From a virus, in IMG/VR virus record IMGVR_UViG_3300017759_000026, positions 1 through 34,591 of that record: a stretch of 34,591 nt of DNA; one strand, 5' to 3'. The position numbers and the translations under genes are program-made. Below the pieces are notes generated by a model. It worked only from the letters and a program-made list of their open reading frames with translations, ran no database searches and was not told the DNA's origin. This document shows positions 1 through 26,226 of this stretch, piece by piece (position 1 is the stretch's first letter; every line of letters begins with the position of its first letter).

Positions 1-44
1 AGTCTGTCAAATAAATGTGTATTCTTAAATTCAGGTATTTTCAT
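1..44 (-). CDS. Start of an unidentified gene, cut by the window edge
   Basis: Only the first 14 codons are present (MKIPEFKNTHLFDR), reading off the left edge. The ATG at 44-42 shares its A with the TAA stop of the gene upstream (TAATG). That gene's GDLA end supplies the ribosome site GGGAGA about nine bases before the ATG. The same coupling is used throughout this array, which is why this open end is called a gene. Too little sequence is left to assign a family. The N-terminus does not look like the GDLA proteins next to it. Confidence 0.6.
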   Translation of the reverse strand, partial: MKIPEFKNTHLFDR

Positions 45-427
45 TATGCTAAGTCTCCCATACAAATAGAGGTGCCAATATCCCAATCAGCATCGCCGCC
101 CTCAGAGCCATTTCTTCCCATGATACGATGTTCGCTAGTAGTCGCTGTGCTATCTGCTTGTAATTCAGCAAATAAAACATCACCAGATTTGCCGACAGAA
201 ATAACAACAGTATAATCTGCCGCTGCAAAATTAGTTGTAAATTGTGGTTTACCCGATCCTGTATAATTATCAACAAGAGAACTTACTCCAAAACTACCAG
301 TTATAGCTGGTGTCGTTAAGTTTGCTCTTATATGTACCTTCGCACTACCATTTACGACAAACTGTGTATTGACGGTTCCTTGTGAACTGTGCTGAATCTC
401 ATCTGCTACTATTTTACCGTTTGCCAT
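44..427 (-). CDS. Short tail-fibre/adhesin-like protein, GDLA family (127 aa)
   Basis: This belongs to a family of about 130-residue proteins repeated in the window. Shared marks are a central F-G-V-S-S-L-V-D segment near residue 47, an F-T-T-N-F segment about 15 residues later, and the terminal M-G-D-L-A. It has no signal peptide or membrane segment. Similar short proteins occur near fibre genes of marine T4-like phages, so a virion surface or fibre-tip role is inferred, not shown. The start overlaps the stop of the C1q-like gene (TAATG), and the end provides the ribosome site of the next gene. The N-terminus (MANGKIVADEIQ) departs from the usual pattern of an x-L-x-V-x-T-L/I-Q stretch, so it is one of the more diverged members. 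Confidence 0.72.
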   Translation of the reverse strand: MANGKIVADEIQHSSQGTVNTQFVVNGSAKVHIRANLTTPAITGSFGVSSLVDNYTGSGKPQFTTNFAAADYTVVISVGKSGDVLFAELQADSTATTSEHRIMGRNGSEGGDADWDIGTSICMGDLA

Positions 428-903
428 TATCCTATTAACCTTCCATTAAAAAAAGAATAAGATCCCGCATCAATAAATGCATTACTTCCACCATCAGCCC
501 TACCGTAAACTGATACATAATCTCCCTTTGCTAAGGTTTGATATATCTTCATACTGCCATTTAGATAATCAGCATTCGTAGTATCTCCAGTATCAAGTCT
601 TAGCTCTTTTCCAGCTGATGCACCATTTACATATATTTGAAATCTAAATACATCATTTGCATTGCCGCTAATCATGTAATTTTCAAACTCATATACTCCG
701 GCAACTGGCGCAGTAAATCTTCCTGTACTAGTGTTGAAGTGGTTTCCTCTATTTACTCGTTCATTTGTGAAAACAGTTAATTCAGCAAAGCTGCTAGTAA
801 GTGCTAAATTTGTACCCGCCGTACCGACCGCATCAACATGAAATATAGGTAACTCTGGATATAATAATTGACCACCTAAACTTTGTATTCTTGCTGCGGT
901 CAT
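427..903 (-). CDS. C1q/TNF-like adhesin protein (158 aa)
   Basis: Residues ~50-158 have the signature of a C1q-like jelly roll: N-R-G-N-H-F-N-T-S-T-G-R-F-T-A-P-V-A-G-V-Y-E-F near residues 51-73 and an aromatic C-terminal strand (S-Y-S-F-F-N-G-R-L-I). C1q-type domains are trimeric binding modules, found in some phage and bacterial surface proteins. Here the context, between two short fibre-like genes, suggests a trimeric receptor-binding tip. About 25 N-terminal residues precede the domain and may dock it. The start ATG at 903 overlaps the upstream stop as ATGA, and the stop overlaps the next start as TAATG. Unlike its neighbours it ends in R-L-I-G, so it sits inside the GDLA array without belonging to that family. 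The domain call is by pattern only. Confidence 0.78.
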   Translation of the reverse strand: MTAARIQSLGGQLLYPELPIFHVDAVGTAGTNLALTSSFAELTVFTNERVNRGNHFNTSTGRFTAPVAGVYEFENYMISGNANDVFRFQIYVNGASAGKELRLDTGDTTNADYLNGSMKIYQTLAKGDYVSVYGRADGGSNAFIDAGSYSFFNGRLIG

Positions 904-1298
904 GCGAGGTCTCCTACTAATATAGCACGACTTCTTATATCGCCATTAGTTCTATGATTAGATGCATTCCACCATACTGTTTCGAAATGATAGTTACTTG
1001 CTGCTTGCGTTCCATGTGACACATCATGTTGATACATAACAGATGTAGTTGAAGCATGATCATTGCACGCACTCGCAATAGCATAAGATGTTCCATCAAA
1101 GTTGTTAGTAAAATTAACAGCTCCGTCACCAGCACCAGTATCTGTTAACGTACTGACATTAAAACTTTTATTAATTGATGCTTGTCCATCTGCTATATCA
1201 ATGTATGCCTTGACGGTACCTTTCGATACATACTGCATAGCGATTGCATTATTTCCGGCAGTATCTTGTAGTGTTTCTACTTTAACTATGCTAGCCAT
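900..1298 (-). CDS. Short tail-fibre/adhesin-like protein, GDLA family (132 aa)
   Basis: This is a typical family member: N-terminal V-K-V-E-T-L-Q-D-T-A-G, then F-N-V-S-T-L-T-D-T-G-A-G near residue 50, F-T-N-N-F, and the end I-L-V-G-D-L-A. A longer reading from 1328 is possible. I chose the ATG at 1298 because it forms the TAATG overlap with the upstream gene, follows a GGAGA ribosome site, and gives the family N-terminus MASIVKVETLQD. The last codons supply the ribosome site for the C1q-like gene through an ATGA overlap. The function is inferred as an accessory fibre or surface protein; no enzymatic motif is visible. Confidence 0.74.
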   Translation of the reverse strand: MASIVKVETLQDTAGNNAIAMQYVSKGTVKAYIDIADGQASINKSFNVSTLTDTGAGDGAVNFTNNFDGTSYAIASACNDHASTTSVMYQHDVSHGTQAASNYHFETVWWNASNHRTNGDIRSRAILVGDLA

Positions 1299-1708
1299 TA
1301 TGCTAAATCTCCATGTACAGTAGAACACATGAGGTCGTAGTCTGCAATAGATCCGGCATCACTTGTTGTGTTAATTCTATAATGATTTGTGGCTTGCAAA
1401 GAATTGTTTCCAAGATGTGCAAAAAAAGCATCTCCATTCAAAGAACATGATGCAGTTATTGAATATCTTACAGCATTCATATTATTTGTAAAGACCATGT
1501 CGGTTCTACCTGCTCCGTCGTCGGTTAATGAAGATGTGTTAAAACTATCCTGTAAGGTGTGTGTATTACTATCGATAGTGTTATTAGTCCATTGTTTCGC
1601 TAAGCCTTGTTGAAGATTAGTTGTAGTACTGTTACCTTCACCAGTTACAACTACAGAACCTGCAGTAGATCTGCCTTCAAGTTTATTTACTCTTACAACA
1701 CCAGTCAC
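1298..1708 (-). CDS. Short tail-fibre/adhesin-like protein, GDLA family, GTG start (136 aa)
   Basis: The N-terminal V-R-V-N-K-L-E-G-R-S-T-A-G, central F-N-T-S-S-L-T-D-D-G-A-G, F-T-N-N-M and terminal V-H-G-D-L-A place it in the family. The start is a GTG at 1708-1706, overlapping the upstream TGA stop as GTGA, with GGAGA seven bases before it inside the upstream gene's last codons. This is the one array member with a GTG start; the junction geometry is otherwise unchanged. The region between the N-terminal motif and the central motif is longer than in its neighbours, which accounts for the extra residues. The role is inferred from the family and its location. Confidence 0.74.
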   Translation of the reverse strand: MTGVVRVNKLEGRSTAGSVVVTGEGNSTTTNLQQGLAKQWTNNTIDSNTHTLQDSFNTSSLTDDGAGRTDMVFTNNMNAVRYSITASCSLNGDAFFAHLGNNSLQATNHYRINTTSDAGSIADYDLMCSTVHGDLA

Positions 1709-2085
1709 GCGAGATCTCCCAAAATTGCTATACCTGCTTGCGCGTCATCCACAGCAGTTGAAGTTGCATAAGCATATCTCATATCAGCAGCAGTTGTGGT
1801 ATAGGCGGCATCTGGCATCACCGCTCGTACAGTACCAGTCGTAGAACCCCTGTTTCCACAAGCGCCTTGCAGACACAAATAAACTATATCAGAAAATGCG
1901 TTTGTAAAATTATGGATTTTATGACCAGCCGAACTGTCTGTGATTGAGCTGTGGTTCAAAGATTTATTAGGCGGATTTGGACCGTCATTGTCTTGTTCTG
2001 AAAAAGCCTTAATTCCTGCCTGCTTAGTCAGTGTAACTGGACCGCCTGATATATTCTGAATGGTATTTATATTAAGTTGACTCAT
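1705..2085 (-). CDS. Short tail-fibre/adhesin-like protein, GDLA family (126 aa)
   Basis: The protein starts MSQLNINTIQNISGG, has L-N-H-S-S-I-T-D at about residue 50, F-T-N-A-F after it, and ends I-A-I-L-G-D-L-A. A TTG codon four codons upstream (2097) could start a longer form. The ATG at 2085 is preferred because GGAG lies six bases before it and it makes the ATGA overlap with the upstream stop. It is the first GDLA gene of the left array and follows a short AGP-type protein, the same order as at 22900-22685 in the right array. Function unproven; accessory fibre protein by context. Confidence 0.73.
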   Translation of the reverse strand: MSQLNINTIQNISGGPVTLTKQAGIKAFSEQDNDGPNPPNKSLNHSSITDSSAGHKIHNFTNAFSDIVYLCLQGACGNRGSTTGTVRAVMPDAAYTTTAADMRYAYATSTAVDDAQAGIAILGDLA

Positions 2086-2360
2086 ACTACACTCCAATAT
2101 CCATTCACTGTTATTGTAACGCCACTATCAATAGAAACTGGACCAGCAGACATTGCACGATCTGCTGAATCAATTGTGTGATTAGAAGAAACGTTATCGT
2201 TGTTTACTCTAAAAACATCTTTTTCAAAACCGACTAATGATAACGTACTGGCAGAATCAACTCCTCCGCCACCACCACTGCCTGTAGCTCCAGTAACATT
2301 TCTTGGCCGGCCATTAGCGTTAAAATTAGCTGCAATAAATCTTGCTTTTGATTCTGCCAT
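2082..2360 (-). CDS. Short fibre-like protein with AGP/DSG C-terminal motif (92 aa)
   Basis: Three parts are visible: an N-terminal S-K-A-R-F-I-A-A-N-F stretch like the S-R-N-x-x-I-A peptide of other fibres here, a poly-glycine hinge (residues ~28-33) followed by V-D-S-A-S-T-L-S-L-V, and a C-terminal β-rich unit with A-G-P-V-S-I-D-S-G-V-T-I-T-V. The C-terminal unit recurs in the 71-aa protein at 22685 and at the end of the 542-aa fibre at 24224. Units of this type are common at the ends of marine phage fibre proteins. It starts one base downstream of nothing else on this side: the gp19-like gene stops at 2361, directly before its ATG. It heads the left GDLA array. Confidence 0.68.
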   Translation of the reverse strand: MAESKARFIAANFNANGRPRNVTGATGSGGGGGVDSASTLSLVGFEKDVFRVNNDNVSSNHTIDSADRAMSAGPVSIDSGVTITVNGYWSVV

Positions 2361-12287: not shown

Positions 12288-12612
12288 CAATTATATTTTC
12301 ATCCTGTTGTAAAAGCTTTTGTAGATCTGAAGTAGATCCAAGAAAAACATTATTTGTTGTATTACCTATTTGCTTCGGTTCTTCTTCTCTATTAATGTCT
12401 TTTTGTTTCTTATTGAGATCCATTAACTTATCATTCACGTCTGATATATTCTTAATCATACCAGATAAAACTTCATATGCTCGCGGATGCTCAGAAGCAC
12501 GAGCAACTTCAATCATATCTTCTAATGACTCACGACCTTTTTCTATTAGTTCGTAATATGTTTGTCGTGAGTAGTCATAGTCTGATTGAATATTTTTGTT
12601 ATCATCACTCAT
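12250..12612 (-). CDS. gp16: Terminase small subunit gp16
   Basis: A 120-residue helical protein, as expected for the ring-forming DNA-recognition subunit of T4-like terminases. The central helical pair D-Y-S-R-Q-T-Y-Y-E-L-I-E-K-G and A-R-A-S-E-H-P-R-A-Y-E-V-L is the family pattern, followed by a Lys-rich linker and a C-terminal tail. It is shorter than T4 gp16 (164). It overlaps gp17 by 38 bases. Its own start overlaps the preceding 71-aa gene by eight bases (ATGAGTGA), the same overlap as at gp20/gp67. Confidence 0.9.
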   Translation of the reverse strand: MSDDNKNIQSDYDYSRQTYYELIEKGRESLEDMIEVARASEHPRAYEVLSGMIKNISDVNDKLMDLNKKQKDINREEEPKQIGNTTNNVFLGSTSDLQKLLQQDENIIDVTPDRELSRKS

Positions 12613-12820
12613 TGTCTACATAAGGACCGATTGGGCCATAAGCTCCCATTTTAGCTTGATCAAGTATCAATCTACCATGTGGCTCAGGATCATCATCTGT
12701 GGCATGAAACGATACCCACTCTTCATTTAAATGTTCAAAATTTACGTCTAATACTACGCTAGTGCGCTCTGCATTCGCCCAAACAGGATTTTTAGCTTCT
12801 AATACTTTAATAATAACCAT
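12605..12820 (-). CDS. Small fibre-associated protein with EPHG motif, copy 2 (71 aa)
   Basis: This is a paralogue of the 70-aa protein at 13791-14003. Both share a V-x-F-x-H-x-x-x-E-W-x-x-F segment, then D-x-E/P-x-P-H-G, then A-K/R-x-G-A/E-x-G. Short proteins of this pattern, with a Trp-x-x-Phe strand and a Gly-rich end, often follow phage fibre genes. A fibre tip, chaperone or assembly role is plausible but unproven. It is the second gene of the duplicated cassette. Its start shares a base with the fibre stop (TAATG), with AAGGA encoded by the fibre's last codons as ribosome site. Confidence 0.7.
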   Translation of the reverse strand: MVIIKVLEAKNPVWANAERTSVVLDVNFEHLNEEWVSFHATDDDPEPHGRLILDQAKMGAYGPIGPYVDNE

Positions 12821-13788
12821 TATGATATCCTTACAAATAATGTGGTTACTGATCTAACACTTCCTACTGTTGCATTACCCATACAACGCCAGGTTCCACT
12901 TAAAGTGCCGCCTCCAACACCATCAGCATTTGACTTAGTTAATAGTCCACCCGACGTAGTACTACCAAATCCAACAGCGCCTGACGCTTTAGCAAAACAA
13001 TATGTGCCTACGGCTCCAGCTGTAGTTGATACACTTACTGTAGAACTAATTACACCGCTGCCTGAAATACTGATACCTGTTCCGGCTGTAGGAGGCTTAC
13101 TGAGTGATACAACTCCTGATGATACACTAAAGTCAGATGAATTAAATGATGCAATACCTTTTGTACTAGTTGATGCATCCGGCGCACCGGTATAGATAAA
13201 TGTTCCTATTGTTTCGTTATACGCAAATGAACCTGCCCCGCCATTATCGATTGCACTTAATCTTGTACGGACTGCAGAATCAGTAAGAGTTACATGTCCG
13301 TTTATATTTACATTAAAATCATCAGAATCAAAGGATGCCACACCCGTTGAATCTATTTCTATTTTTCCTGCCACTCTTCCAGCAGCGCTGTTAGGATTGA
13401 TTGTAACATGACCGTTAGTTACTACAAAGTTTGAAGAATCAAATGATGCTGTACCATCACTATCTTTTGTAGCAAGTCTTTCAATCCAAGATACATGACC
13501 ACTATCAGTGACAGTGAATCGTGCAGAATCAAATGAAGCAAGACCTACACTATCGTTACTAGCAAAGAAGTCACCACCTCTTTGTCCTCCCCATATAGAA
13601 TCCAACATAACCATAACATCATCAGAGTCAAAATAGATCGGTGTACCAGCTGCTTCTAGATGCGTTACACGACTATTGAGGTCATGACCTTCTATTACAT
13701 CAACACGGCCATCTAAATCTGTAAAGTTACCATCTAATTCTGCAAAGGTGAGTTCACTTCCTTTTGTCAGCCGTAATACGATAGGCAT
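12820..13788 (-). CDS. Fibre protein, duplicated cassette copy 2 (322 aa)
   Basis: The N-terminal ~65 residues (MPIVLRLTKGSELTFAELDG, then N-F-T-D-L-D-G-R-V) are a conserved attachment-type segment of marine phage fibres. Next comes a run of degenerate ~22-30-residue repeats with the core A-S-F-D-S-x-x-F-x-V-x-x-G-H-V (about four copies, residues ~75-180). The end is a Gly/Ser/Thr-rich distal part (residues ~200-322) unlike copy 1, with two cysteines. There is no signal or membrane segment. The N-terminus matches copy 1 closely and the C-terminus does not, as expected if only the tip is under diversifying selection. It lies between gp15 and gp16, so a neck or collar fibre is possible. Attachment to the baseplate is equally open. 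Confidence 0.78.
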   Translation of the reverse strand: MPIVLRLTKGSELTFAELDGNFTDLDGRVDVIEGHDLNSRVTHLEAAGTPIYFDSDDVMVMLDSIWGGQRGGDFFASNDSVGLASFDSARFTVTDSGHVSWIERLATKDSDGTASFDSSNFVVTNGHVTINPNSAAGRVAGKIEIDSTGVASFDSDDFNVNINGHVTLTDSAVRTRLSAIDNGGAGSFAYNETIGTFIYTGAPDASTSTKGIASFNSSDFSVSSGVVSLSKPPTAGTGISISGSGVISSTVSVSTTAGAVGTYCFAKASGAVGFGSTTSGGLLTKSNADGVGGGTLSGTWRCMGNATVGSVRSVTTLFVRIS

Positions 13789-13790
13789 TT

Positions 13791-14003
13791 TTAACTCCCT
13801 TCAGGTGGTGGAGATACAGCGCCGAATTCTCCATTCATAGCTCTTGCATGTAAATCTTTACCATGTGGTTCAGTATCGCTTGCGCTAGCTGTGAATGGAA
13901 ACCATTCATCGCCTATATGAGTAAACTTAACTTCCATATCAATATCTGTATATGATCCATTAGACCACTGTAAATTTCTAACTTCTGTCCATGTAATTGT
14001 CAT
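13791..14003 (-). CDS. Small fibre-associated protein with EPHG motif, copy 1 (70 aa)
   Basis: It shares with the copy at 12605 the K-F-T-H-I-G-D-E-W-F-P-F strand, the D-T-E-P-H-G motif and the G-E-F-G-A-V end. Here these are closer to the pattern usual in phage fibre-associated proteins (W-x-P-F-T-A followed by D-x-E and G-E-F-G). The start overlaps the stop of the 369-aa fibre (TAATG), and AAAGGA in the fibre's final codons is the ribosome site. Strict pairing with a fibre gene, twice, suggests that each acts on its own fibre. The biochemical role is not known. Confidence 0.72.
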   Translation of the reverse strand: MTITWTEVRNLQWSNGSYTDIDMEVKFTHIGDEWFPFTASASDTEPHGKDLHARAMNGEFGAVSPPPEGS

Positions 14004-15112
14004 TATAAAATCCTTTGTGCTAAACAGTATGATGATGAACCACTACCATTAATATATCCTATAACACCTGGACCACAATTTCTCCAAGTACCAGATAAAG
14101 TTTGACTGGAATTATTACTGCTATTATAAAACGGCGCGTCTAGACGAGTTGCACTAAAATTATTTGCCTCTAATCCACCTGTTCCAGTTCTAATAATACT
14201 TGCATTTGCTGCGGTAAACTGACCGTTTGCAAGTTTACCGATTCTTAATCTACTTCCAGGTATAGATGCTCCAGGCGCATATTTAGTACCATTCGGTATT
14301 CCATTAGATTGTACAAACATGAATGAACCAACATCTGTAACAGCACTAGGGATTGGTATACCACTGCCACCGGCAAGAGATACAACACCCGAGCTTACAC
14401 TAAAATCTGATGAACTAAATGACGCAATACCTTTGTTTGTCGTCGTTGCATCTTCGCCACTTATAACACCAGTTGCACTATCGTAATCAATACCTTCTCC
14501 CTCAACAAATTTTGATCTTACACCAGAAATATCTAAAGTGACATGACCATTTGCATTTATATCAAAGTCTGATGAATCAAATGAAGCAACACCAGTAGAA
14601 TCAATTTGTGTAATACCAGCCACTCTACCAGCTGCGCTATTTGGATTAATAGTCACATGACCACTAGTGACTACAAAGTTTGAAGAATCAAATGATGCAA
14701 CTCCTGTAGAATCGAGTGAAGTACCAGCGTTTAATAATGTGATGTGACCATTAGTTACTACAAAATCTTCTGAATCAAAAGATGAAATACCGACAGAATC
14801 ATTTGTTGCTAATCTGATACTGACATGACCAGAATCAACAAGAAAGTGAGCAGAATCAAATGATGCAAGTCCTACTGAGTCGACAGTAGCTAAAAATGAA
14901 TCTACGCCACCTGCCCATATAGAATCCAACATAACCATGACGTCATCAGAATCAAAATAGATAGGAGTACCAGCGGCTTCTAATCTTGTTACACGATTAT
15001 TAAGGTCATGACCTTCAACAATATCGAGTCGATCATCTAGATGAGTAAAATTACCATCAAGCTCTGCAAAAGTAAGTTCTGCACCTTTTGTTAATCTTAA
15101 TACTATCGGCAT
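14003..15112 (-). CDS. Fibre protein, duplicated cassette copy 1 (369 aa)
   Basis: It begins with the same MPIVLRLTKG attachment-type segment as copy 2, up to about residue 65 (P-I-Y-F-D-S-D-D-V-M-V-M-L-D-S-I-W). Five A/S-S-F-D-S-x-x-F repeats with G-H-V/I follow (residues ~75-190). After residue ~215 the sequence diverges from copy 2. The distal part is Gly/Ser/Asn-rich and presumably forms the tip. It overlaps the gp15 stop at 15112. It is rich in Asp-Ser (about 13 in 369 residues). By analogy with phage fibres it is expected to be trimeric, but that is inference. Confidence 0.78.
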   Translation of the reverse strand: MPIVLRLTKGAELTFAELDGNFTHLDDRLDIVEGHDLNNRVTRLEAAGTPIYFDSDDVMVMLDSIWAGGVDSFLATVDSVGLASFDSAHFLVDSGHVSIRLATNDSVGISSFDSEDFVVTNGHITLLNAGTSLDSTGVASFDSSNFVVTSGHVTINPNSAAGRVAGITQIDSTGVASFDSSDFDINANGHVTLDISGVRSKFVEGEGIDYDSATGVISGEDATTTNKGIASFSSSDFSVSSGVVSLAGGSGIPIPSAVTDVGSFMFVQSNGIPNGTKYAPGASIPGSRLRIGKLANGQFTAANASIIRTGTGGLEANNFSATRLDAPFYNSSNNSSQTLSGTWRNCGPGVIGYINGSGSSSYCLAQRIL

Positions 15113-18556: not shown

Positions 18557-20974
18557 TTAACCGTCAAAACCAGCAGTAGGAGCAGTAAAGTTACCGGTAT
18601 ATCGGCAAAATCCCCAAGTGATTCTCATATTTTGCATGTATCCTATATAATCTCCACCTAGATTTCCTGCATAATTACCCCAATATGCCGATCTTGCAAC
18701 ACTATCTCTTATATAATTAGTGCTGTCAGAATATGTTGATCCTACTTGTGTTCCATTTACAAACATTTTTGTAGAAGTGCCAGTTCTCGCGACTGCAATG
18801 TGATACCAGGTATCTGCCGAAAGTGAACCGCCAGTAATTCTATTACTACCAGCTGTATAATAATACAATGTGCTGCTTGACACATAAAGTGTAGGAATAT
18901 TTTGTGTTCCGCTACCTCTACCATCGTATATGTTTCGAGAACCAGTTACGGAGTTCATGTATACCCAAGCCTCAATAGTAAAATCACGTGTTCCAAATGT
19001 TGTAAGAACATCACTTACCTGTAGATAAGAATTACTTCCATTAAAATAAAAAGAATCTGTCGTGGTAAATTTACGCTGTCCTGTCGAAGCTGAAACACCA
19101 GATGATAAAATTGTAGGACCATCAAAATGAGCAGACGTATACATAGAATTTTTATTTGTAAATGTAAGAACTTCAGTATTTGTTACATCTGTTAAAGGTG
19201 AAGTTGGTGGTGTGAAGTTTGTAGTATAAACTGCTGATCCTTTAACTGATCTTAGATCTGAATAAAAGCCATCTACCTGTGATGTTGCTCCATATCCATT
19301 TCTTCCTACTAAAGGTCGACTTGATCCGGCAATGTAGTTAATACTATCTGAATAGGTTCCGATACTTTTACCGTTTACATAGAATGTAGACGTACCTGAT
19401 ACTCTAGATAATGCTATATGAGTCCAGACATTTGGTTTAAGAACGTTCGATTGAATTCTCCAGCCAGTATTAGCATAAAGTCCTATACCGTCTGATGAAT
19501 TATGTGCGATAGTAATATAGGCACCGTTTCCATTTGTTGGCCTAGCATCAAACAATGTCACGTTAGAACTCGTTGTTTCAGCCCAAAACCAAAATTCAAG
19601 TGTAAAATCATTGGTACCATAGGCAGCGATGCCATCAAGTCGATATGAATTATTAACATCGTTATTAAAGTCTATAGAACCGCCGTGACCTGCTACGGTA
19701 TAAGGTTCGTAGTCATATGGACCAAAACGATATACCCGTGTATTCCCGGCAAGAGTAATAGTGTTGTTATCAGTAGATCCATCAGCAAAATACGAAAGAT
19801 GACATGCCAATAATTTAGTATTTGCTATCGCAGTTAAACGTTTAGTTGGCGCTGTGAAATTTGAAGTATAAACCGCAGTTCCTTTTACAAATCTCACATC
19901 AGTTAAATATCCAGTATACGGATTGGATTGATTTCCAGCAGCACCGATATAAAGAGTAGATGTACCGCTGTAATCTGTACTATCACTTGCATTCGTATGA
20001 ATTGCAGTACCGTTAATAAAAATTTTAGTCGTTGTACCGCTTCTAGAAACAGCTAGATGATTCCAAGTATATGAACTAAATTGCCCACCAGAGGATTGGT
20101 TTGTGAGTGTATTACCTTTATACGTTGTTACTGTACCTCCAGAACTATAATTTAATATTATACCAAATCCAGTTGTTGAAGTATAACTCGAATATGGATC
20201 CATACGAGTACTAGCATTAGTAGTATAAAACCAAAATTCTACTGTAAAGTCACCAGCTTCTGGCACCATCTGTTCGCTGCCATTAGCAACTGTTAACCAA
20301 TCCCCGGTACCATCAAAATATACACTATATCCACCAGGATGATAAGGTGTAAATGGAGTAGAAGGTACACTACCGACTTCAGTAAGAGTTGTGCCTGTTG
20401 ATGACGCATCAACCTGAGTATCTGTTCCATCACTATCTGCCACTAATAACATCGATGTATATCTGGAATATTGAACTGAAAATTGCAATGAAAGCACTCG
20501 AGTGTCGGAACCAAAGCTAATACCATCAGACGCTTTAAAGGTTAATGTAGATGATGTTGTTGTAGCGGAATCTTCACTTCGTGGAGTGATTGTAAATACA
20601 GAACTATCTTGACTTAGTGTGGCAAATCCGTTGAAACTACCGTCTGACTCTACACTGAACGTTAATCCAGCAACAGCATTGTCTGAATCTGTACCAGTTA
20701 ATGTAATAGTAGTGGTTGAACCATCAGTGCTTAATACTATTTCACCGGTAGGACTGATCGTAAGAGCAGGCGTTGCATTTACTAATGCTACATTATACCA
20801 TCCGGATCCATTTGAAATATAAAATCTACTTGTATTCGAAACATATGCCTGGTCACCAGACGTAAGTCCAGTAGTCGGTAAATTTTCTTTTGTTGCATAC
20901 ACTGCCAGACTTGAAGCGCCGGCGCCTGTTCCGTCAATGAGTTCAGCAAGATTTCGATTTCGGCTTTTACTCAT
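18557..20974 (-). CDS. Large fibre/adhesin with three LamG-like domains (805 aa)
   Basis: Domains in order: an N-terminal peptide S-R-N-R-N-L-A-E-L-I shared with other fibres here, then a short Y-A-T-K-E-N-L-P / Y-I-S-N-G-S-G-W-Y unit (residues ~26-65). An Ig/cadherin-like stretch follows (~70-170), then three LamG/concanavalin-like domains at about 213-378, 428-593 and 640-805. Each LamG unit repeats the pattern D-F-T-x-E-x-W, then W-x-H-x-A-x-x-R with F-V/I-N-G, then G-Y/F-x-x-x-x-R. Such domains bind glycans in many proteins, so receptor binding is the likely role. The ATG overlaps the stop of a 54-aa gene (ATGA). The gene is followed by the gp13 promoter. Confidence 0.85.
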   Translation of the reverse strand: MSKSRNRNLAELIDGTGAGASSLAVYATKENLPTTGLTSGDQAYVSNTSRFYISNGSGWYNVALVNATPALTISPTGEIVLSTDGSTTTITLTGTDSDNAVAGLTFSVESDGSFNGFATLSQDSSVFTITPRSEDSATTTSSTLTFKASDGISFGSDTRVLSLQFSVQYSRYTSMLLVADSDGTDTQVDASSTGTTLTEVGSVPSTPFTPYHPGGYSVYFDGTGDWLTVANGSEQMVPEAGDFTVEFWFYTTNASTRMDPYSSYTSTTGFGIILNYSSGGTVTTYKGNTLTNQSSGGQFSSYTWNHLAVSRSGTTTKIFINGTAIHTNASDSTDYSGTSTLYIGAAGNQSNPYTGYLTDVRFVKGTAVYTSNFTAPTKRLTAIANTKLLACHLSYFADGSTDNNTITLAGNTRVYRFGPYDYEPYTVAGHGGSIDFNNDVNNSYRLDGIAAYGTNDFTLEFWFWAETTSSNVTLFDARPTNGNGAYITIAHNSSDGIGLYANTGWRIQSNVLKPNVWTHIALSRVSGTSTFYVNGKSIGTYSDSINYIAGSSRPLVGRNGYGATSQVDGFYSDLRSVKGSAVYTTNFTPPTSPLTDVTNTEVLTFTNKNSMYTSAHFDGPTILSSGVSASTGQRKFTTTDSFYFNGSNSYLQVSDVLTTFGTRDFTIEAWVYMNSVTGSRNIYDGRGSGTQNIPTLYVSSSTLYYYTAGSNRITGGSLSADTWYHIAVARTGTSTKMFVNGTQVGSTYSDSTNYIRDSVARSAYWGNYAGNLGGDYIGYMQNMRITWGFCRYTGNFTAPTAGFDG

Positions 20975-21135
20975 GTGAGGTCTCCAAATACAGCCATAGT
21001 AATTACTTCAAAATCATCAGCGTTTCCAGTACTTAAACCATAAGTATGTATTCTCATTGAACCTGCGGCTTGCGTGCTGGTGTCGACACCAAAGTTGTGA
21101 ATGAGACTTGAGCTAATTTTTTGTTGATCAGGCAT
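20971..21135 (-). CDS. Minimal GDLA-family-like protein ending GDLT (54 aa)
   Basis: A short ORF, MPDQQKISSSLIHNFGVDTS onward, ending A-V-F-G-D-L-T. It fills exactly the space between the preceding GDLA gene and the LamG fibre. Its ATG shares a base with the upstream stop (TAATG, with GGAGGAG before it). Its stop overlaps the fibre start (ATGA), and its own end GGAGACCTCACATGA gives the fibre a ribosome site. About 75 residues of the usual family length are missing, including the F-T-N-N-F segment. It may be a shrunken family member kept for coupling, or a small protein in its own right. Confidence 0.62.
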   Translation of the reverse strand: MPDQQKISSSLIHNFGVDTSTQAAGSMRIHTYGLSTGNADDFEVITMAVFGDLT

Positions 21136-21512
21136 TACGCTAAAACTCCTCCAGGTATGGAGAACGAGTTGTTTGCTCTGTCAATTACACCAGCATTTTC
21201 AACTGTTGTAACAAGTGTAGAACTCGTTGCCTCTTGTTCTGAATAATTACAGTTATGATTATAATTAGCTTCTGCTTGCCCTGTCACAGCAGTTGCGTAA
21301 TTAGTTGTAGAATTCATATTATTCGTGAAATTTGGCCTGTATTTTCCAGTAGCCGCATCATCCACCGAACTTATATTAAAACTGTCCAGTACCGCTGGTG
21401 TGTCATGGTTGTAACGTAGCCAAGCCTTTGCAACCCCACCTGTCACAAAAGTAGAGGCGATCGTAGTTCCTGCAGTATCTTGTATAGTTCCTACTGTAAG
21501 TTTTCCGGTCAT
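21135..21512 (-). CDS. Short tail-fibre/adhesin-like protein, GDLA family, GGVLA end (125 aa)
   Basis: N-terminal L-T-V-G-T-I-Q-D-T-A-G, central F-N-I-S-S-V-D-D-A-A-T-G, F-T-N-N-M, and a divergent end S-I-P-G-G-V-L-A. A longer reading from 21536 exists, but the ATG at 21512 makes the array's ATGA overlap and is preceded by GGAGACC. The altered end is informative: the codons GGA GGA GTT TTA GCG still encode a strong ribosome site (GGAGGAG) for the 54-aa gene. The DNA function is kept while the peptide motif changes. The role is accessory fibre protein by family. Confidence 0.73.
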   Translation of the reverse strand: MTGKLTVGTIQDTAGTTIASTFVTGGVAKAWLRYNHDTPAVLDSFNISSVDDAATGKYRPNFTNNMNSTTNYATAVTGQAEANYNHNCNYSEQEATSSTLVTTVENAGVIDRANNSFSIPGGVLA

Positions 21513-21907
21513 GCTAGGTCTCCCATTGCGTGACACTGCGATAGTCCAACGTCTATCAAAGACCCATCATTCATTACGTAAGAATTTAAAAATATTTCTG
21601 AGACGCTATCTCCACGTAGAGCGTCACAAGTTCTGTTGACATTTCCTGAACCGTTATTCGTTGTAACATTTCTACCAGAAGCCGTACAACAAATTGTAGT
21701 CGTTGACGCAAATGCATTAGTTATAGCGACTTTTTGTCTTCCTGCTGCCGTATCTGCTGTAGAACTTACGTTAAGACTATCACTTATACTTGTACCATTA
21801 GCTAAGCTTGTTATCCAAGATTTTACAACACCATTTACAACCGAAGTAGTAGTCGTTCCATCCGATATGTGTATCGCACCGCCGCTATTTGAAAGTGTTG
21901 CACTCAT
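21509..21907 (-). CDS. Short tail-fibre/adhesin-like protein, GDLA family (132 aa)
   Basis: The central L-N-V-S-S-T-A-D-T-A-A-G, then I-T-N-A-F and the end C-H-A-M-G-D-L-A mark the family. The N-terminus (MSATLSNSGGAIHISDGTTT) lacks the usual L-x-V-x-T-L-Q pattern. There is a run of cysteines (T-I-C-C-T, T-C-D-A, Q-C-H), unusual for the array. The start overlaps the upstream stop as ATGA with GGAGACC before it, and its end does the same for the following gene. Function inferred from family and location only. Confidence 0.73.
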   Translation of the reverse strand: MSATLSNSGGAIHISDGTTTTSVVNGVVKSWITSLANGTSISDSLNVSSTADTAAGRQKVAITNAFASTTTICCTASGRNVTTNNGSGNVNRTCDALRGDSVSEIFLNSYVMNDGSLIDVGLSQCHAMGDLA

Positions 21908-22293
21908 GCTAGGTCTCCGTGTCCTATTGCATATACAAACGCCGGATCTATATACGCAGTTGAACCTTCATTGTACAACATCATCTCTGAATTAGAGGTT
22001 GTTGGATCTGTCTGGCCGGCACCACCAGCAGTTACGAATGTTCTTCCGGTCGTTCCATTTTTTTGACCGTGACTTAGTGCATAATTTACATTAGCAAAAT
22101 TTGTTGTATAGTTTAGACGATAATCGCCTGCACCATTATCTGTAAGAGTAGATACATTCAAAGTATCTCTAATCGCCGGAGTTCCAGTTCCATTAAAGTT
22201 TACAAATAACCTCGCCGCACTTTGCTGAGTCATTGTAACTGGTCCATTACCAGTTGCATTCGATAATGTAGTTACTCTTAGTTCGCTGGTCAT
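21904..22293 (-). CDS. Short tail-fibre/adhesin-like protein, GDLA family (129 aa)
   Basis: This is a close match to the family consensus: L-R-V-T-T-L-S-N-A-T-G, L-N-V-S-T-L-T-D-N-G-A-G-D-Y-R, Y-T-T-N-F and A-I-G-H-G-D-L-A. Its central motif is nearest to the form common in marine phage fibre proteins. The middle-to-end segment (residues ~70-115) is unlike its neighbours and is where specificity would be expected to vary. It is coupled on both sides by ATGA overlaps. Its upstream ribosome site is the variant GGGGAC of the 22290 gene's end. Confidence 0.75.
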   Translation of the reverse strand: MTSELRVTTLSNATGNGPVTMTQQSAARLFVNFNGTGTPAIRDTLNVSTLTDNGAGDYRLNYTTNFANVNYALSHGQKNGTTGRTFVTAGGAGQTDPTTSNSEMMLYNEGSTAYIDPAFVYAIGHGDLA

Positions 22294-22688
22294 GCTAAGT
22301 CCCCTACAATCCTAGCAGTGTTTAGATAAACATCTTGAACAGTGCTTGCCTCATCACCAACATAATAACCAAATTGAGATGTTGACAATATACCATAATC
22401 ATTAGGTGTACCACCAAAGTTACCATCCATTTGTGCCCATAATCTTTGTGTTCTATCATTCGAAGCAAAGGCAAATGGTGCATAAGTTGTGTCTGCAAAA
22501 TTATTTGTAAATGTTACAGTGGACGCACCATTTGTGTTATCGGTGACCGATGATTGATTTAACGAACTATTTACGCTGTACGTGGAACTGCCATCCCATC
22601 TACCATAATATCTATCAGCAACTTGACTAGTCAGGGTAACTGCACCACCTGTTGATGTCTCTACTGTATTTGCACGTAGTGTACTCAT
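22290..22688 (-). CDS. Short tail-fibre/adhesin-like protein, GDLA family (132 aa)
   Basis: First GDLA gene of the right array. Marks are L-R-A-N-T-V-E-T-S-T-G-G-A-V-T-L near the start, L-N-Q-S-S-V-T-D-N-T-N-G, F-T-N-N-F, and the end R-I-V-G-D-L-A. Its N-terminus and that of the 1705 gene are alike, and both follow an AGP-type short gene, so the left and right arrays start in the same way. Aromatic residues are frequent in the first half (R-Y-Y-G-R-W). The ATG overlaps the upstream stop as ATGA. Confidence 0.75.
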   Translation of the reverse strand: MSTLRANTVETSTGGAVTLTSQVADRYYGRWDGSSTYSVNSSLNQSSVTDNTNGASTVTFTNNFADTTYAPFAFASNDRTQRLWAQMDGNFGGTPNDYGILSTSQFGYYVGDEASTVQDVYLNTARIVGDLA

Positions 22689-22900
22689 GCTATCACCAAT
22701 GTTGCGCTATCGTTTAGTGTTACAGTGACACCGCTGTCTATGAAGATTGGCCCCGCAACTAATCCATTGTTAGCAGAATCAAGGGTATAGTTTGAACTGA
22801 ATGTATGACTGTGTTCTCTAACTATATTATCAGCTCTTTGGACATCAGTTCCCATACCACGTATATTTTTTGCAACGTTGAAGTTTCTACTTACTGCCAT
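22685..22900 (-). CDS. Short fibre-like protein with AGP/DSG C-terminal motif (71 aa)
   Basis: It has an N-terminal S-R-N-F-N-V-A-K-N-I peptide, matching the S-R-N-x-x-I/V-A-x-x-I start of three long fibres here, joined to the A-G-P-I-F-I-D-S-G-V-T-V-T-L unit found at 2082 and at the end of the 542-aa fibre. It looks like a minimal fibre: a docking peptide plus a terminal β-unit, without shaft. It stands at the head of the right GDLA array. The role is inferred. Similar AGP-type segments are widespread in marine phage fibres. Confidence 0.7.
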   Translation of the reverse strand: MAVSRNFNVAKNIRGMGTDVQRADNIVREHSHTFSSNYTLDSANNGLVAGPIFIDSGVTVTLNDSATLVIA

Positions 22901-23087: not shown

Positions 23088-24224
23088 CTATAGCTCCGAA
23101 TTAAAAGCTAACCAGGAAACACCGGCTGTACTGTTAACAAATTCTAGTAGATATATACTAGTTACTGCCATGCCACCACTTGATCTAACATATCCTAAAT
23201 CTAAGTTATTACCACCAGAATAACCATCATTATGCAAACCTGTTGGTGCACCACTGTTAGCAGCATTAAACCTACCACCTAAACTAAAATGTGCTAAGTT
23301 AGAATACTCTATTCCTGGAGGAGTTCTCATTGTTGACTCTAAAAAGAATGGACAGTTACCGTTTGTTGCAGACCAATTACTACCCAATGCCAAACCAGCA
23401 TAATTTGCAAAGTTAGAATATCTCTGATAATATCTTTGGCAGCTTTGTCTTTCTTCACCGAATGTTCGATGTTGAAATGCTGTAGCCTGTGTTCCAACTT
23501 GTAATTGCACTCCGGTAATATATAATGTTGCTGCATTTGTAGAGCACACATTGATATGTCCAGGAACTGCATAATCATATGATGTATTCCAACCACCATC
23601 AGTACTTGTACCACCATCAGAATGATCGGGTCCAAGTCCTGTGTACCATTGTACTTTCAATCCAATTGCAGTGCTACCTGCACCGTTCCATGTTCCTGTC
23701 GTTCTTGCAGGAACTGATATAGTTTTATATTCCCAAGTATTTGCAGTATTGATTGTACAATTTGCTGTAAATATTTGTGTATCATCATGATTCATAAGTG
23801 TAAATGGTATTGAACCAGTAACACTACACTTAATATAAAATGAACAAACTAAAGGTTGAGCAGCTGCAGTACCAAATCCAACATGAGCAATATTCTTTGC
23901 TTCAACTCTTTGACCGATCATAGCATATTGTGTGCCGGTAAATGTAGTTGCAGCTTTTGATGTCATTAATAATGAATACCCAAATGCACCTCCTGGTGTA
24001 TCTGTTGATTGTGATATTCTCATTGTGTCGGTCGGATTACCAGAAAAATTAAATCTATCAATTGCATACAATGAAGCAGTTGTACTATCGACATAGGTTG
24101 TACCTTGTGTCAATCTTTGTGCAACATGCATCGCGCCATTGATAATCATATTCTGATTATCAGATTGCGTATGACCACTATTCTTGCGACCTATCATTTT
24201 AGCAATTTGCTGATTTCTGCTCAT
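23088..24224 (-). CDS. Tail fibre / receptor-binding-type protein (378 aa)
   Basis: After an S-R-N-Q-Q-I-A-K-M-I docking-type peptide comes the hallmark N-Q-N-M-I-I-N-G-A-M-H-V-A-Q-R (residues ~23-37). It opens a widespread phage fibre domain of about 250 residues. Within it are a Y-A-I-D-R-F segment, Q-S-T-D-T-P-G-G, T-W-E-Y-K-T-I-S-V-P, and the closing I-T-G-V-Q-L-Q-V-G plus F-G-E-E-R-Q-S-C-Q-R-Y-Y-Q-R-Y (~250-275). The remaining ~100 residues are variable. It shares a TAATG junction with the 542-aa fibre upstream. The exact receptor type is unknown. Confidence 0.82.
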   Translation of the reverse strand: MSRNQQIAKMIGRKNSGHTQSDNQNMIINGAMHVAQRLTQGTTYVDSTTASLYAIDRFNFSGNPTDTMRISQSTDTPGGAFGYSLLMTSKAATTFTGTQYAMIGQRVEAKNIAHVGFGTAAAQPLVCSFYIKCSVTGSIPFTLMNHDDTQIFTANCTINTANTWEYKTISVPARTTGTWNGAGSTAIGLKVQWYTGLGPDHSDGGTSTDGGWNTSYDYAVPGHINVCSTNAATLYITGVQLQVGTQATAFQHRTFGEERQSCQRYYQRYSNFANYAGLALGSNWSATNGNCPFFLESTMRTPPGIEYSNLAHFSLGGRFNAANSGAPTGLHNDGYSGGNNLDLGYVRSSGGMAVTSIYLLEFVNSTAGVSWLAFNSEL

Positions 24225-25852
24225 TAACTTATCACCAAGTTACCGTTGATTGTTAGTGTTATACCACTATCGAATGATATAGGTCCAGCACAATGTGCAT
24301 TTAAACTACTGTCTATTGTGGTATTTATAGTAAGTGTTTGAGGATTAGTTCTGAACATACCACCTAATAATGCGTTACTACTTCCACCGCCGAATTTACT
24401 AACTACCACTACATCGTTTGAATCTGTAGTTTGTGCAAGAACAATTGATGTGCCACTTGTTGCAGTATAATCTTGAGAATCAACAAGTAGGATACCATTT
24501 AAGAAAACCTGTACATTTCCGACATCGTATGATAATGTACCACCGTGTGTCGCAAGTCCACTAAATGTTGTTTGTGGTGATGCAGATACAAATTTATATT
24601 GTGCGTGGTCAGTACCACCTGCTCCAGTAAATTTAGTAATACTTACAATATCGCCAGAATCTGTGGCAACACCTAATACAACAGAATTTCCAGTCGTTGC
24701 TGTATAATCTGCGGAATCTACTAATAAAATACCATTTTGAAATACTATAATGTTTCCAGAATTATATACTAGTGCAGCACCATTATCGTCATTGCCTGAA
24801 ATAGTTGTAGTAGGATGAGCAGTTGTGTATGTAAACGTAGTTTGTTTTGCTTGTGAGTTTACTAAATTCAATGTAGTTGCAGAATCTAGACCACCACCGC
24901 CTCCACCTCCGCCTGAAACAGTAATTGTCTTTGTTGCACCAGAACCAGTTGCAGTTACTCCTGATCCTACAAAATTAAGAGTCGTGGCAGATGTTGAAAG
25001 AGAGGAACCTTCTTCTTGTACAGTAATCGCACCGCCGGATTGTCTTAATTGAATGTATGCACTATCGACAATTGCTGAAATACCAGATGAATCTTGGAAT
25101 CTATCTCTTAATTGAACATATGCGCTGTCAATCAATTGTGTTGTAAGTGCAGAATCTAATGCAGTACCAACAATTGCACTAACCATGGCAGAATCAAAAG
25201 ATAATTGATGAAATGTTGTAAGAGGTGCAATATTGACATACATATATTGATTATCAAACGGAGGTGCATAACCAGCCATAGATGGAGTAAAATCAATATA
25301 ACCTAAATTTGGTGCGCCTCCATACATCGCTCCTGTGTCAGACACAGCAGTGATAGTTCTTGCATCAGCACCACCTGAATTTCGCGCAACCGCCATGCCA
25401 ATACCAAAGTTTTCAGAAGGTAATTGACCTGCCGGAACAATATCAAAGTATGCTCTTGTTATCGTTCCGTTATTTGTTTGCACACGAAAGTTAGTATTGG
25501 TATATCCAGCTCCTGGACCCGCTATATTTGTAAGTACATAAGCATCTCCTCGACCAGCACCACCAGCAAGATATGCTATATCGCCGACTCTAACTTGACC
25601 GATTTCAGCTCCTAAGCCATTATGTTGACTAAGTACGTTAAGTGCACCTATAGAGTCCATTCTGAAAACACGAGGATCTGTACCAGCTGTCCTATCCGAA
25701 TCTGAAGCGGTACTAATAAGTGTGTTTATGCTAGCTGAATCAACTGATAGATCAGTTATAACAATGTTCTTTGAACTTTGAACGAGTGCAGCTATGGCTC
25801 TATTTCTGGAGCGGTAGGTTTTTTCTGATGAACTACCTTTACGTTCAGACAT
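24224..25852 (-). CDS. Modular tail fibre with DSAY and FLNG repeats (542 aa)
   Basis: The N-terminus holds the S-R-N-R-A-I-A-A-L-V docking-type peptide (residues ~15-24). Then come a globular part (~25-210) and two D-S-A-Y-V/I-Q-L-R repeats (~240-272). Next are a segment T-V-Q-E-E-G-S-S-L-S-T ending T-K-T-I-T-V and an eight-glycine hinge (~318). Two ~75-residue F-L/Q-N-G-I-L-L-V-D-S-x-D-Y-T-A repeats follow (~335-490), and the chain ends in the A-G-P-I-S-F-D-S-G-I-T-L-T-I unit. Several modules recur in the 1479-aa fibre with recognisable DNA similarity. It has its own late promoter and an AAGGA ribosome site, with a leader of only ~11 bases. Confidence 0.83.
   Translation of the reverse strand: MSERKGSSSEKTYRSRNRAIAALVQSSKNIVITDLSVDSASINTLISTASDSDRTAGTDPRVFRMDSIGALNVLSQHNGLGAEIGQVRVGDIAYLAGGAGRGDAYVLTNIAGPGAGYTNTNFRVQTNNGTITRAYFDIVPAGQLPSENFGIGMAVARNSGGADARTITAVSDTGAMYGGAPNLGYIDFTPSMAGYAPPFDNQYMYVNIAPLTTFHQLSFDSAMVSAIVGTALDSALTTQLIDSAYVQLRDRFQDSSGISAIVDSAYIQLRQSGGAITVQEEGSSLSTSATTLNFVGSGVTATGSGATKTITVSGGGGGGGGLDSATTLNLVNSQAKQTTFTYTTAHPTTTISGNDDNGAALVYNSGNIIVFQNGILLVDSADYTATTGNSVVLGVATDSGDIVSITKFTGAGGTDHAQYKFVSASPQTTFSGLATHGGTLSYDVGNVQVFLNGILLVDSQDYTATSGTSIVLAQTTDSNDVVVVSKFGGGSSNALLGGMFRTNPQTLTINTTIDSSLNAHCAGPISFDSGITLTINGNLVIS
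24376..24845 (-). repeat. Two tandem ~75-codon FLNG-type repeats in the 542-aa fibre
   Basis: Each unit encodes a stretch ending T-F/I-S-G, then L-x-Y-x-x-G-N-I/V-x-V-F-x-N-G-I-L-L-V-D-S-x-D-Y-T-A-T and a strand V-V-L-x-x-x-T-D-S-x-D-I/V-V. Five more copies lie in the 1479-aa fibre. Confidence 0.8.
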
Positions 25853-25861
25853 ATTACTTCC

Positions 25862-25885
25862 TTATCGGTATTTATAAGTAGTCAT
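25862..25885 (-). other. Seven-codon mini-ORF at a GDLA junction
   Basis: The end of the 25882 gene (GGAGACCTTGCATGA) creates the usual ribosome site and ATGA start, but the frame (M-T-T-Y-K-Y-R) stops after seven codons. The late promoter element lies inside it. It looks like a relic of a former cassette or a spacer; expression is unproven. Confidence 0.45.
25869..25876 (-). promoter_or_regulatory. T4-type late promoter element TATAAATA for the 542-aa fibre
   Basis: Exact element between the 25882 and 25852 genes. Predicted start is at ~25863, giving a short leader that carries AAGGA before the ATG. Confidence 0.78.
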
Positions 25886-26226
25886 GCAAGGTCTCCTATC
25901 ACTGCAACATGATTTTGGCATACTGAATGTGCATTGTCAGCTGTAAAGACTTCAGTATCAACTTTTGCAGTTGTCATGACAATAACTGCAAGACTTCTGT
26001 TAGAAGGATTGGTATTAATACCATTAGATGCACCACCACCACCGGCTACTGGACAATAATATAAATTAGTCATGACAATACTTAAATTTACTTCAACCTC
26101 ATCAGAGTTATCTGTTAAACTAGACACTGCAAAGCTGCCATTTGGATTCGGTGGGTTATCTACAGTGCTAAAATAAACCCATGCCTTTACAGTGTCATAT
26201 CCTCTTATAACATTTATATTTGCCAT
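25882..26226 (-). CDS. Short tail-fibre/adhesin-like protein, GDLA family, isolated copy (114 aa)
   Basis: A shorter, isolated family member between the two long fibres. It keeps F-A-V-S-S-L-T-D-N near residue 32 and the end V-A-V-I-G-D-L-A. The F-T-N-N-F segment is replaced by I-V-M-T-N-L, and the N-terminal motif is reduced (MANINVIRGYDTVKAW). It begins one base after the stop of the 1479-aa fibre. Its end still carries GGAGACCTTGCATGA, although no paralogue follows. It may serve as a tip partner of the long fibre ahead of it; that is a guess from position. Confidence 0.7.
   Translation of the reverse strand: MANINVIRGYDTVKAWVYFSTVDNPPNPNGSFAVSSLTDNSDEVEVNLSIVMTNLYYCPVAGGGGASNGINTNPSNRSLAVIVMTTAKVDTEVFTADNAHSVCQNHVAVIGDLA

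Follow-up and report, generated by a model that had tools for sequence, protein, structure and literature searches.

Sets of three small tail-fibre tip genes with position-specific N-termini and exchanged heads in a T4-like marine phage and its relatives

As a rule, the tip of a phage fibre is regarded as a homotrimer of a single protein. The tail of the virophage DSLV2 is tripartite, and its three proteins were reported to co-purify as a 1:1:1 heterotrimer (PMC12724248). As in that virus, the tail genes described here are consecutive and share one orientation (this holds for most arrays headed by a short AGP protein and, in the window, for sets I and III, whereas set II is split), and a protein resembles its positional counterparts in other viruses more than its neighbours in the same virus, although here this applies to the N-terminus and not to the head. 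The DSLV2 proteins have 196-247 aa, carry the collar domain PF07484 and resemble T4 gp37, whereas the tip proteins studied here have 114-136 aa, and the copies scanned against Pfam gave no match to PF07484 up to an E-value of 10. By length and domain, the DSLV2 proteins look like another family; unlike them, the genes described here are preceded by an AGP stub and their heads are exchanged between positions. The Ackermannviridae (PMC11414711) also have conserved N-terminal assembly regions, exchanged receptor-binding parts and several receptor-binding proteins per virion; however, up to four large tail spikes are joined there by XD domains, whereas here the N-termini are short, the genes come in sets of three and the heads are small and non-enzymatic. 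Gp10-like XD domains occur in some members of that family; in the N-termini studied here, of only ~27-36 residues, the general Pfam scan gave no match. The genes for AGP, chain A, a C1q-type chain B and chain C are also found in the cultured Puniceispirillum phage HMO-2011 (SAR116), but this is a 55-kb phage that is not T4-like, with a small gene between B and C and further B- and C-type genes nearby. The PHROG entry phrog_11355 corresponds to the family of the copies described below, and neither grouping in threes nor a position code is part of that entry.

The sequence analysed here (the window) is a 34,591-base virus record from a T4-like marine phage whose structural genes lie on the − strand; by its portal protein, the nearest named relatives are Phage C48C1 (67% identity) and then pelagiphage HTVC008M (53%). 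The initial annotation had described nine copies of a short adhesin plus a 54-aa remnant, and all of these open frames are present on the − strand, distributed over two operons and a solitary site. A scan of seven copies against PHROGs matched each of them to phrog_11355 ('tail fiber protein', E = 2e-4 to 4e-16), and a family HMM built from the copies recovered all nine, including the two that were not scanned. The aligned copies are 16-30% identical to the first one. Among the motifs proposed as shared, S49, D53 and a C-terminal G-D-L-A are common to the aligned copies, with the exceptions of 21135, which ends in GGVLA, and of the remnant, which ends in GDLT. As had been noticed, the stretch that follows F-T-N-N-F is the most variable (mean column entropy of 3.35 bits for residues 79-115, versus 1.96-2.30 elsewhere), and a short AGP protein heads both arrays. 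The listed open frames of three copies begin further upstream than their likely true extents, which are 900-1295, 1705-2085 and 21135-21512. One gene in the middle of array 1 (427-903) had been left out; it is outside the phrog_11355 family, yet it belongs to the same operon and matches the Pfam C1q domain (PF00386, E = 1.3e-10, 42.1 bits against a curated cut-off of 23.7). Most adjacent tip genes share a 4-base overlap, so that their translation may be coupled. As to a possible diversity-generating retroelement, the open reading frames of the window included none that was noticed to encode a reverse transcriptase. The genes are listed below with their putative set and chain, as read from the N-terminal class models and the comparisons described further on.

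2082..2360, − strand: AGP stub of array 1 (type I), with the anchor MAESKARFIA and an AGP cap (phrog_34255, E = 1.1e-8, at the C-terminal end of the profile)
1705..2085, − strand: putative set I, chain A (phrog_11355, E = 9e-7; class A 43.2 bits versus 11.8 for B and 13.9 for C)
1298..1708, − strand: putative set I, chain B (phrog_11355, E = 9.4e-14; class B 64.6 bits)
900..1295, − strand: putative set I, chain C (phrog_11355, E = 3.3e-6; class C 41.9 bits)
427..903, − strand: C1q-domain tip protein, putative set II, chain B (C1q match; position B in relatives; no N-terminal class match)
44..427, − strand: putative set II, chain C (phrog_11355, E = 2.9e-5; class C 33.5 bits; best relatives are third genes of A-C1q-C triads)
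22685..22900, − strand: AGP stub of array 2 (type II, by likeness to the AGP proteins that precede A-C1q-C triads)
22290..22688, − strand: putative chain A of set II, located away from the B and C of that set (class A 29.9 bits; N-terminus STLRANTVETSTGG)
21904..22293, − strand: putative set III, chain A, the copy that was modelled (phrog_11355, E = 3.9e-16; class A 33.3 bits versus 24.0 for C)
21509..21907, − strand: putative set III, chain B, a weak call (family HMM, 4e-17; class B 16.6 bits versus 9.3 for C and 0.3 for A)
21135..21512, − strand: putative set III, chain C (phrog_11355, E = 3e-13; class C 32.0 bits)
20971..21135, − strand: C-terminal head remnant of 54 aa, fifth member of array 2 by a refined family HMM, with no BLAST match in the locus set
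25882..26226, − strand: solitary tip gene after a 1479-aa fibre (phrog_11355, E = 2.1e-4; no N-terminal class)
24224..25852, − strand: 542-aa fibre with a C-terminal AGP cap (its C-terminus, ...CAGPISFDSGITLTINGNLVIS, aligns with AGP caps)

To place these genes among their relatives, 431 related loci from viral contigs and bacterial genomes, most of them metagenomic contigs, were searched with profiles of the tip family, the AGP cap and the C1q protein, and near-duplicates were removed before the arrays were counted. Exactly three tip genes were present in 86 of 118 complete AGP-headed arrays versus 1 of 109 arrays without an AGP head, counts that are not corrected for ancestry. By source, the share of arrays with exactly three was 54/64 in the B-seeded scan, 11/16 in the A-seeded scan and 13/27 in the FR-type scan. 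In several of the arrays counted as having one or two genes, the next gene has another type of head, or small genes or homing endonucleases interrupt the series; a few arrays really seem to hold just two family genes. Five FR-type arrays (L430, L404, L421, L393 and L416) have two family genes after the AGP protein, and these may be two-chain systems or may include a third head that was not recognised. Longer arrays outside the window add to A, B and C one further gene whose start is unrelated, located after C or between B and C. The expectation that related phages carry one or a few such genes thus gave way to a different rule, sets of three after an AGP protein, with at least two arrays in 26 loci. 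The alignment of the ten copies offered no stretch of sufficient conservation for a search. When the single copies 900 and 427 were used as queries, no relatives were obtained in viral contigs, and the stretches fetched from C48C1, the closest named T4-like phage by portal protein, contained no complete tip array. Genes resembling homing endonucleases (GIY-YIG/NUMOD3, or HNH with NUMOD4) were observed between tip genes at L119:10317-10877, L373:734-1228 and L425:5393-6004; the one in L119 looks inserted at the boundary between N-terminus and head, because its start nearly equals the N-terminus of the next tip gene.

The position of a gene within an array can be read from the first ~27-36 residues of its product. 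Each protein of 75 GDLA-type arrays was divided at a conserved K-A-W into an N-terminus and a head, and the best match in another locus was at the same gene position (A, B or C) for 96.9% of the N-termini but only for 39.6% of the heads, without correction for ancestry; when positions were shuffled within arrays, the same-position match averaged 33% and reached 46% at most. In the 15 arrays that were not found by the B-type query, the corresponding values were 91% and 47%. Cross-validated class models assigned the order A-B-C to 70 of the 75 arrays, and one, L325, had the order B-C-A, a cyclic permutation. By unsupervised clustering, 70 of 75 arrays likewise comprised three distinct classes, against 17 expected by chance. 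The position signal was weaker in the smaller FR-type set (12 arrays). When arrays are compared, the distances for the N-termini of A, B and C are correlated with one another (r = 0.46-0.55; 0.51-0.66 within subtypes) and with those of the AGP cap, whereas the N-terminus and the head of the same gene do not co-vary (r = 0.00-0.05) and neither do the heads of adjacent genes; these figures ignore shared ancestry and include some near-duplicate loci, so that they look stronger than independent data would. At identical residues of the conserved N-termini, 39-48% of the four-fold sites differ, from which it follows that the constraint acts on the protein; the idea that the N-termini are conserved as recombination arms was set aside for the same reason. 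Two subtypes, I and II, agree across A, B and C. In 23 of the 26 loci with two arrays, a subtype I array is paired with a subtype II array by pattern, and inspection added two more, in which the second array begins with PSQLNVDT or PSVLNVDT and had been missed by the pattern. Such pairing would be needed if one virion had to keep two complexes separate.

The heads, which barely follow position, are exchanged between positions and between phages. The head of 22290 is 83-87% identical to those of set-I A genes (L173 and L187) that bear another N-terminus; in other phages, genes at positions A, A and C share 74%, 62% and 52% identity, respectively, with the head of 1298 (position B); and the head of the solitary gene 25882 is 56% identical to that of a third-position (C) gene in L312. 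An AlphaFold2 model of 21904 (pLDDT 87.2) shows seven strands from residue 29 onwards, preceded by an N-terminus without regular structure. Among solved folds, it comes closest to the C-terminal domains of phage tailspikes and fibres (Z = 8.1 for the phiAB6 tailspike and 5.8 for AP22 gp53), with H-type lectins lower (4.9 for Helix pomatia agglutinin), although such Z values may reflect no more than a common arrangement. Over the wider group, which includes Pam1 and the R-type pyocins, a similar beta-sandwich arrangement was found with Z from 8.1 down to 4.6 and identities to the head of 3-16%; the phiAB6, Pam1, AP22 and pyocin domains are the ends of one long homotrimeric protein and the H-type lectins are free, which distinguishes them from the small tip proteins. 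Many predicted phage proteins, several of them named tail fibre, have the same fold as 21904. Foldseek against the PDB returned nothing at E = 0.001 or better for the head model, which does not show that the fold is new, and a profile search of solved structures gave a chance match alone (E = 4).

Read with the N-terminal code, and counting the C1q gene, the window holds three A-B-C sets and one solitary head; sets I and III are complete and consecutive, while set II would be divided, with a part in each array. In relatives, C1q genes that begin like 427-903 (MTAAR.QSLGG) occupy position B of A-C1q-C triads, and the N-terminus of 22290, STLRANTVETSTGG, is that of chain A in those triads. The AGP protein 22685 scores 216-217 against the AGP proteins that precede A-C1q-C triads (L011, L173 and L008) versus 96-110 against AGP type I, and its junction with the next gene is nearly identical to that of L011; 22685 and 22290 thus match the AGP and A of these triads. 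Since 22685, 22290 and the C1q-type B all match A-C1q-C triads, set II would consist of AGP and A in array 2 and of B and C in array 1. Two triads in direct succession are found in L011 and L173, and the arrangement in the window may also reflect a join error in its sequence. The type of AGP protein is not strictly tied to the type of set, as L180 has a type-I AGP protein before an A-C1q-C triad. The 542-aa fibre is a possible stub for set III, and with it there would be three AGP caps for three sets.

As for the origin of the AGP protein, close relatives without an array have at the same site, after the tail-tube paralogue, a gene that begins with MAESKAR... or MAETKAR... and continues as a long single fibre of up to 842 aa. 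Since a similarly anchored long fibre occupies this site, the AGP protein looks like a fibre cut to its anchor and cap.

From these observations we infer, leaning only slightly towards this reading, that the arrays encode modular receptor-binding tips in which chains A, B and C are mounted on an AGP stub; the formation of a heterotrimer, its presence in the virion and its binding to a receptor are part of this inference. Three different chains probably build one tail-fibre tip. The short AGP protein would retain two parts of a longer fibre, its virion anchor and its capping domain, and the small chains would be attached to it. The first ~27-36 residues would be an assembly code that fixes both the place of a chain and the set to which it belongs, and the C-terminal head (a small beta-sandwich or, at one B position, a C1q fold) would be the variable, receptor-facing part, swapped between positions and between phages. 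The most likely product would be one A:B:C heterotrimer on a three-fold stub. Two features favour it: the chains are three in number, and their N-termini follow one another rather than the heads. Against it stands the mixture of C1q with beta-sandwich heads within triads, since heads of such different kinds could not be packed into a single three-fold one. Both C1q folds and the knob domains of phages usually self-trimerise, and the C1q heads of A-C1q-C triads adjoin beta-sandwich heads; both facts would fit a branched complex of three homotrimers, in which each N-terminus would direct docking to its own site, either on the AGP stub or on another of the chains. The Ackermannviridae, with conserved N-terminal assembly regions and exchanged receptor-binding domains, follow this same logic (PMC11414711). 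However, the N-termini of just ~27-36 residues include no docking domain found by Pfam, a branched complex does not explain why there are three chains, and a three-fold stub offers identical and not three different sites; we regard this complex, the main rival, as unlikely, though worth serious consideration.

The initial annotation had viewed the copies as a duplicated adhesin repertoire, that is, a pool of equivalent alternative tips that arose by tandem duplication and decorate fibres. Tandem paralogues with variable heads are what this would produce, and the PHROG family, the beta-sandwich head model and the tail-gene context bear out the part of the proposal that concerns tail-fibre tips with variable heads. 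The interchangeability of the copies did not hold, given that in many phages the genes come in threes, with three N-terminal classes and a fixed A-B-C order. If the copies were equivalent, one member of each class would not be retained per array in an unchanging order, nor would the N-termini co-vary between genes, and a redundant pool is accordingly improbable. Unrelated folds among the copies had been named as evidence against the repertoire, and this applies to one array gene alone, the C1q-fold chain B of the putative set II, which was not among the genes listed there. Even less probable is a chain in which homotrimers of A, B and C are stacked end to end on the stub. The gene order is fixed, and the Anabaena myophage A-1(L) provides a precedent, with a bead-chain fibre made of small trimeric proteins (PMC10966104); but such a chain needs each N-terminus to recognise the previous head, and the N-termini do not follow heads, nor do neighbouring heads co-vary. 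A single-chain prediction of a three-gene array read through in frame, with ten such arrays as the alignment, reached a pLDDT of 37.4 and was not used. No proteomic or virion data for a carrier phage were found in open-licence papers.

A natural comparison for the A:B:C reading is provided by Nostoc phage Nsp-JY18 and Microcystis phage Mel-JY33, which are ~96% identical in nucleotide sequence over the aligned part and differ in their recorded hosts. Both encode an AGP-ended protein and, after it, three tip proteins. The AGP proteins are 96% identical and the products of two downstream genes 84% and 99%; the N-termini are 75-81% identical by position, and all three heads only 33-36%. In this pair the heads are linked to the host, as a correlation only. 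More broadly, and more tentatively, with a chance that we would place a little below even, many marine and freshwater tailed phages could build obligate A:B:C heterotrimeric tips, with codes that separate two or three tips per virion, each able to carry three different heads, even of different folds; one fibre could then contact three ligands, and heads could be reshuffled without breaking assembly. If such three-gene tips, with their position code and freely exchanged heads, are indeed widespread, genomes would have to be read differently for host range, as it would be set by three small, easily overlooked genes. The position code offers a testable rule for which genes work together, and the Nostoc and Microcystis phages are ready for such a comparison.

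Other genes of the window were noted as well. A second tandem duplication is located at 12605-15112, where two fibre-like proteins of 322 and 369 aa both begin with MPIVLRLTKG.ELTFAELDGNF, and each of them is followed by a partner gene of 70-71 aa. The gene directly after array 2 (18557-20974) encodes a protein of 805 aa in which Pfam recognises three laminin-G/concanavalin-like domains (E = 2.4e-45); homologues of this protein come after the arrays in several relatives. A type of fibre with an unrelated start (MSRNQQIA... or MSKAAELA...) is found after many triads, for example at 23088-24224 in the window, at L124:4278-5354 and at L101:1441-2586; a start of the same kind is also present on the extra fourth gene of some arrays, where it precedes the same family of heads.
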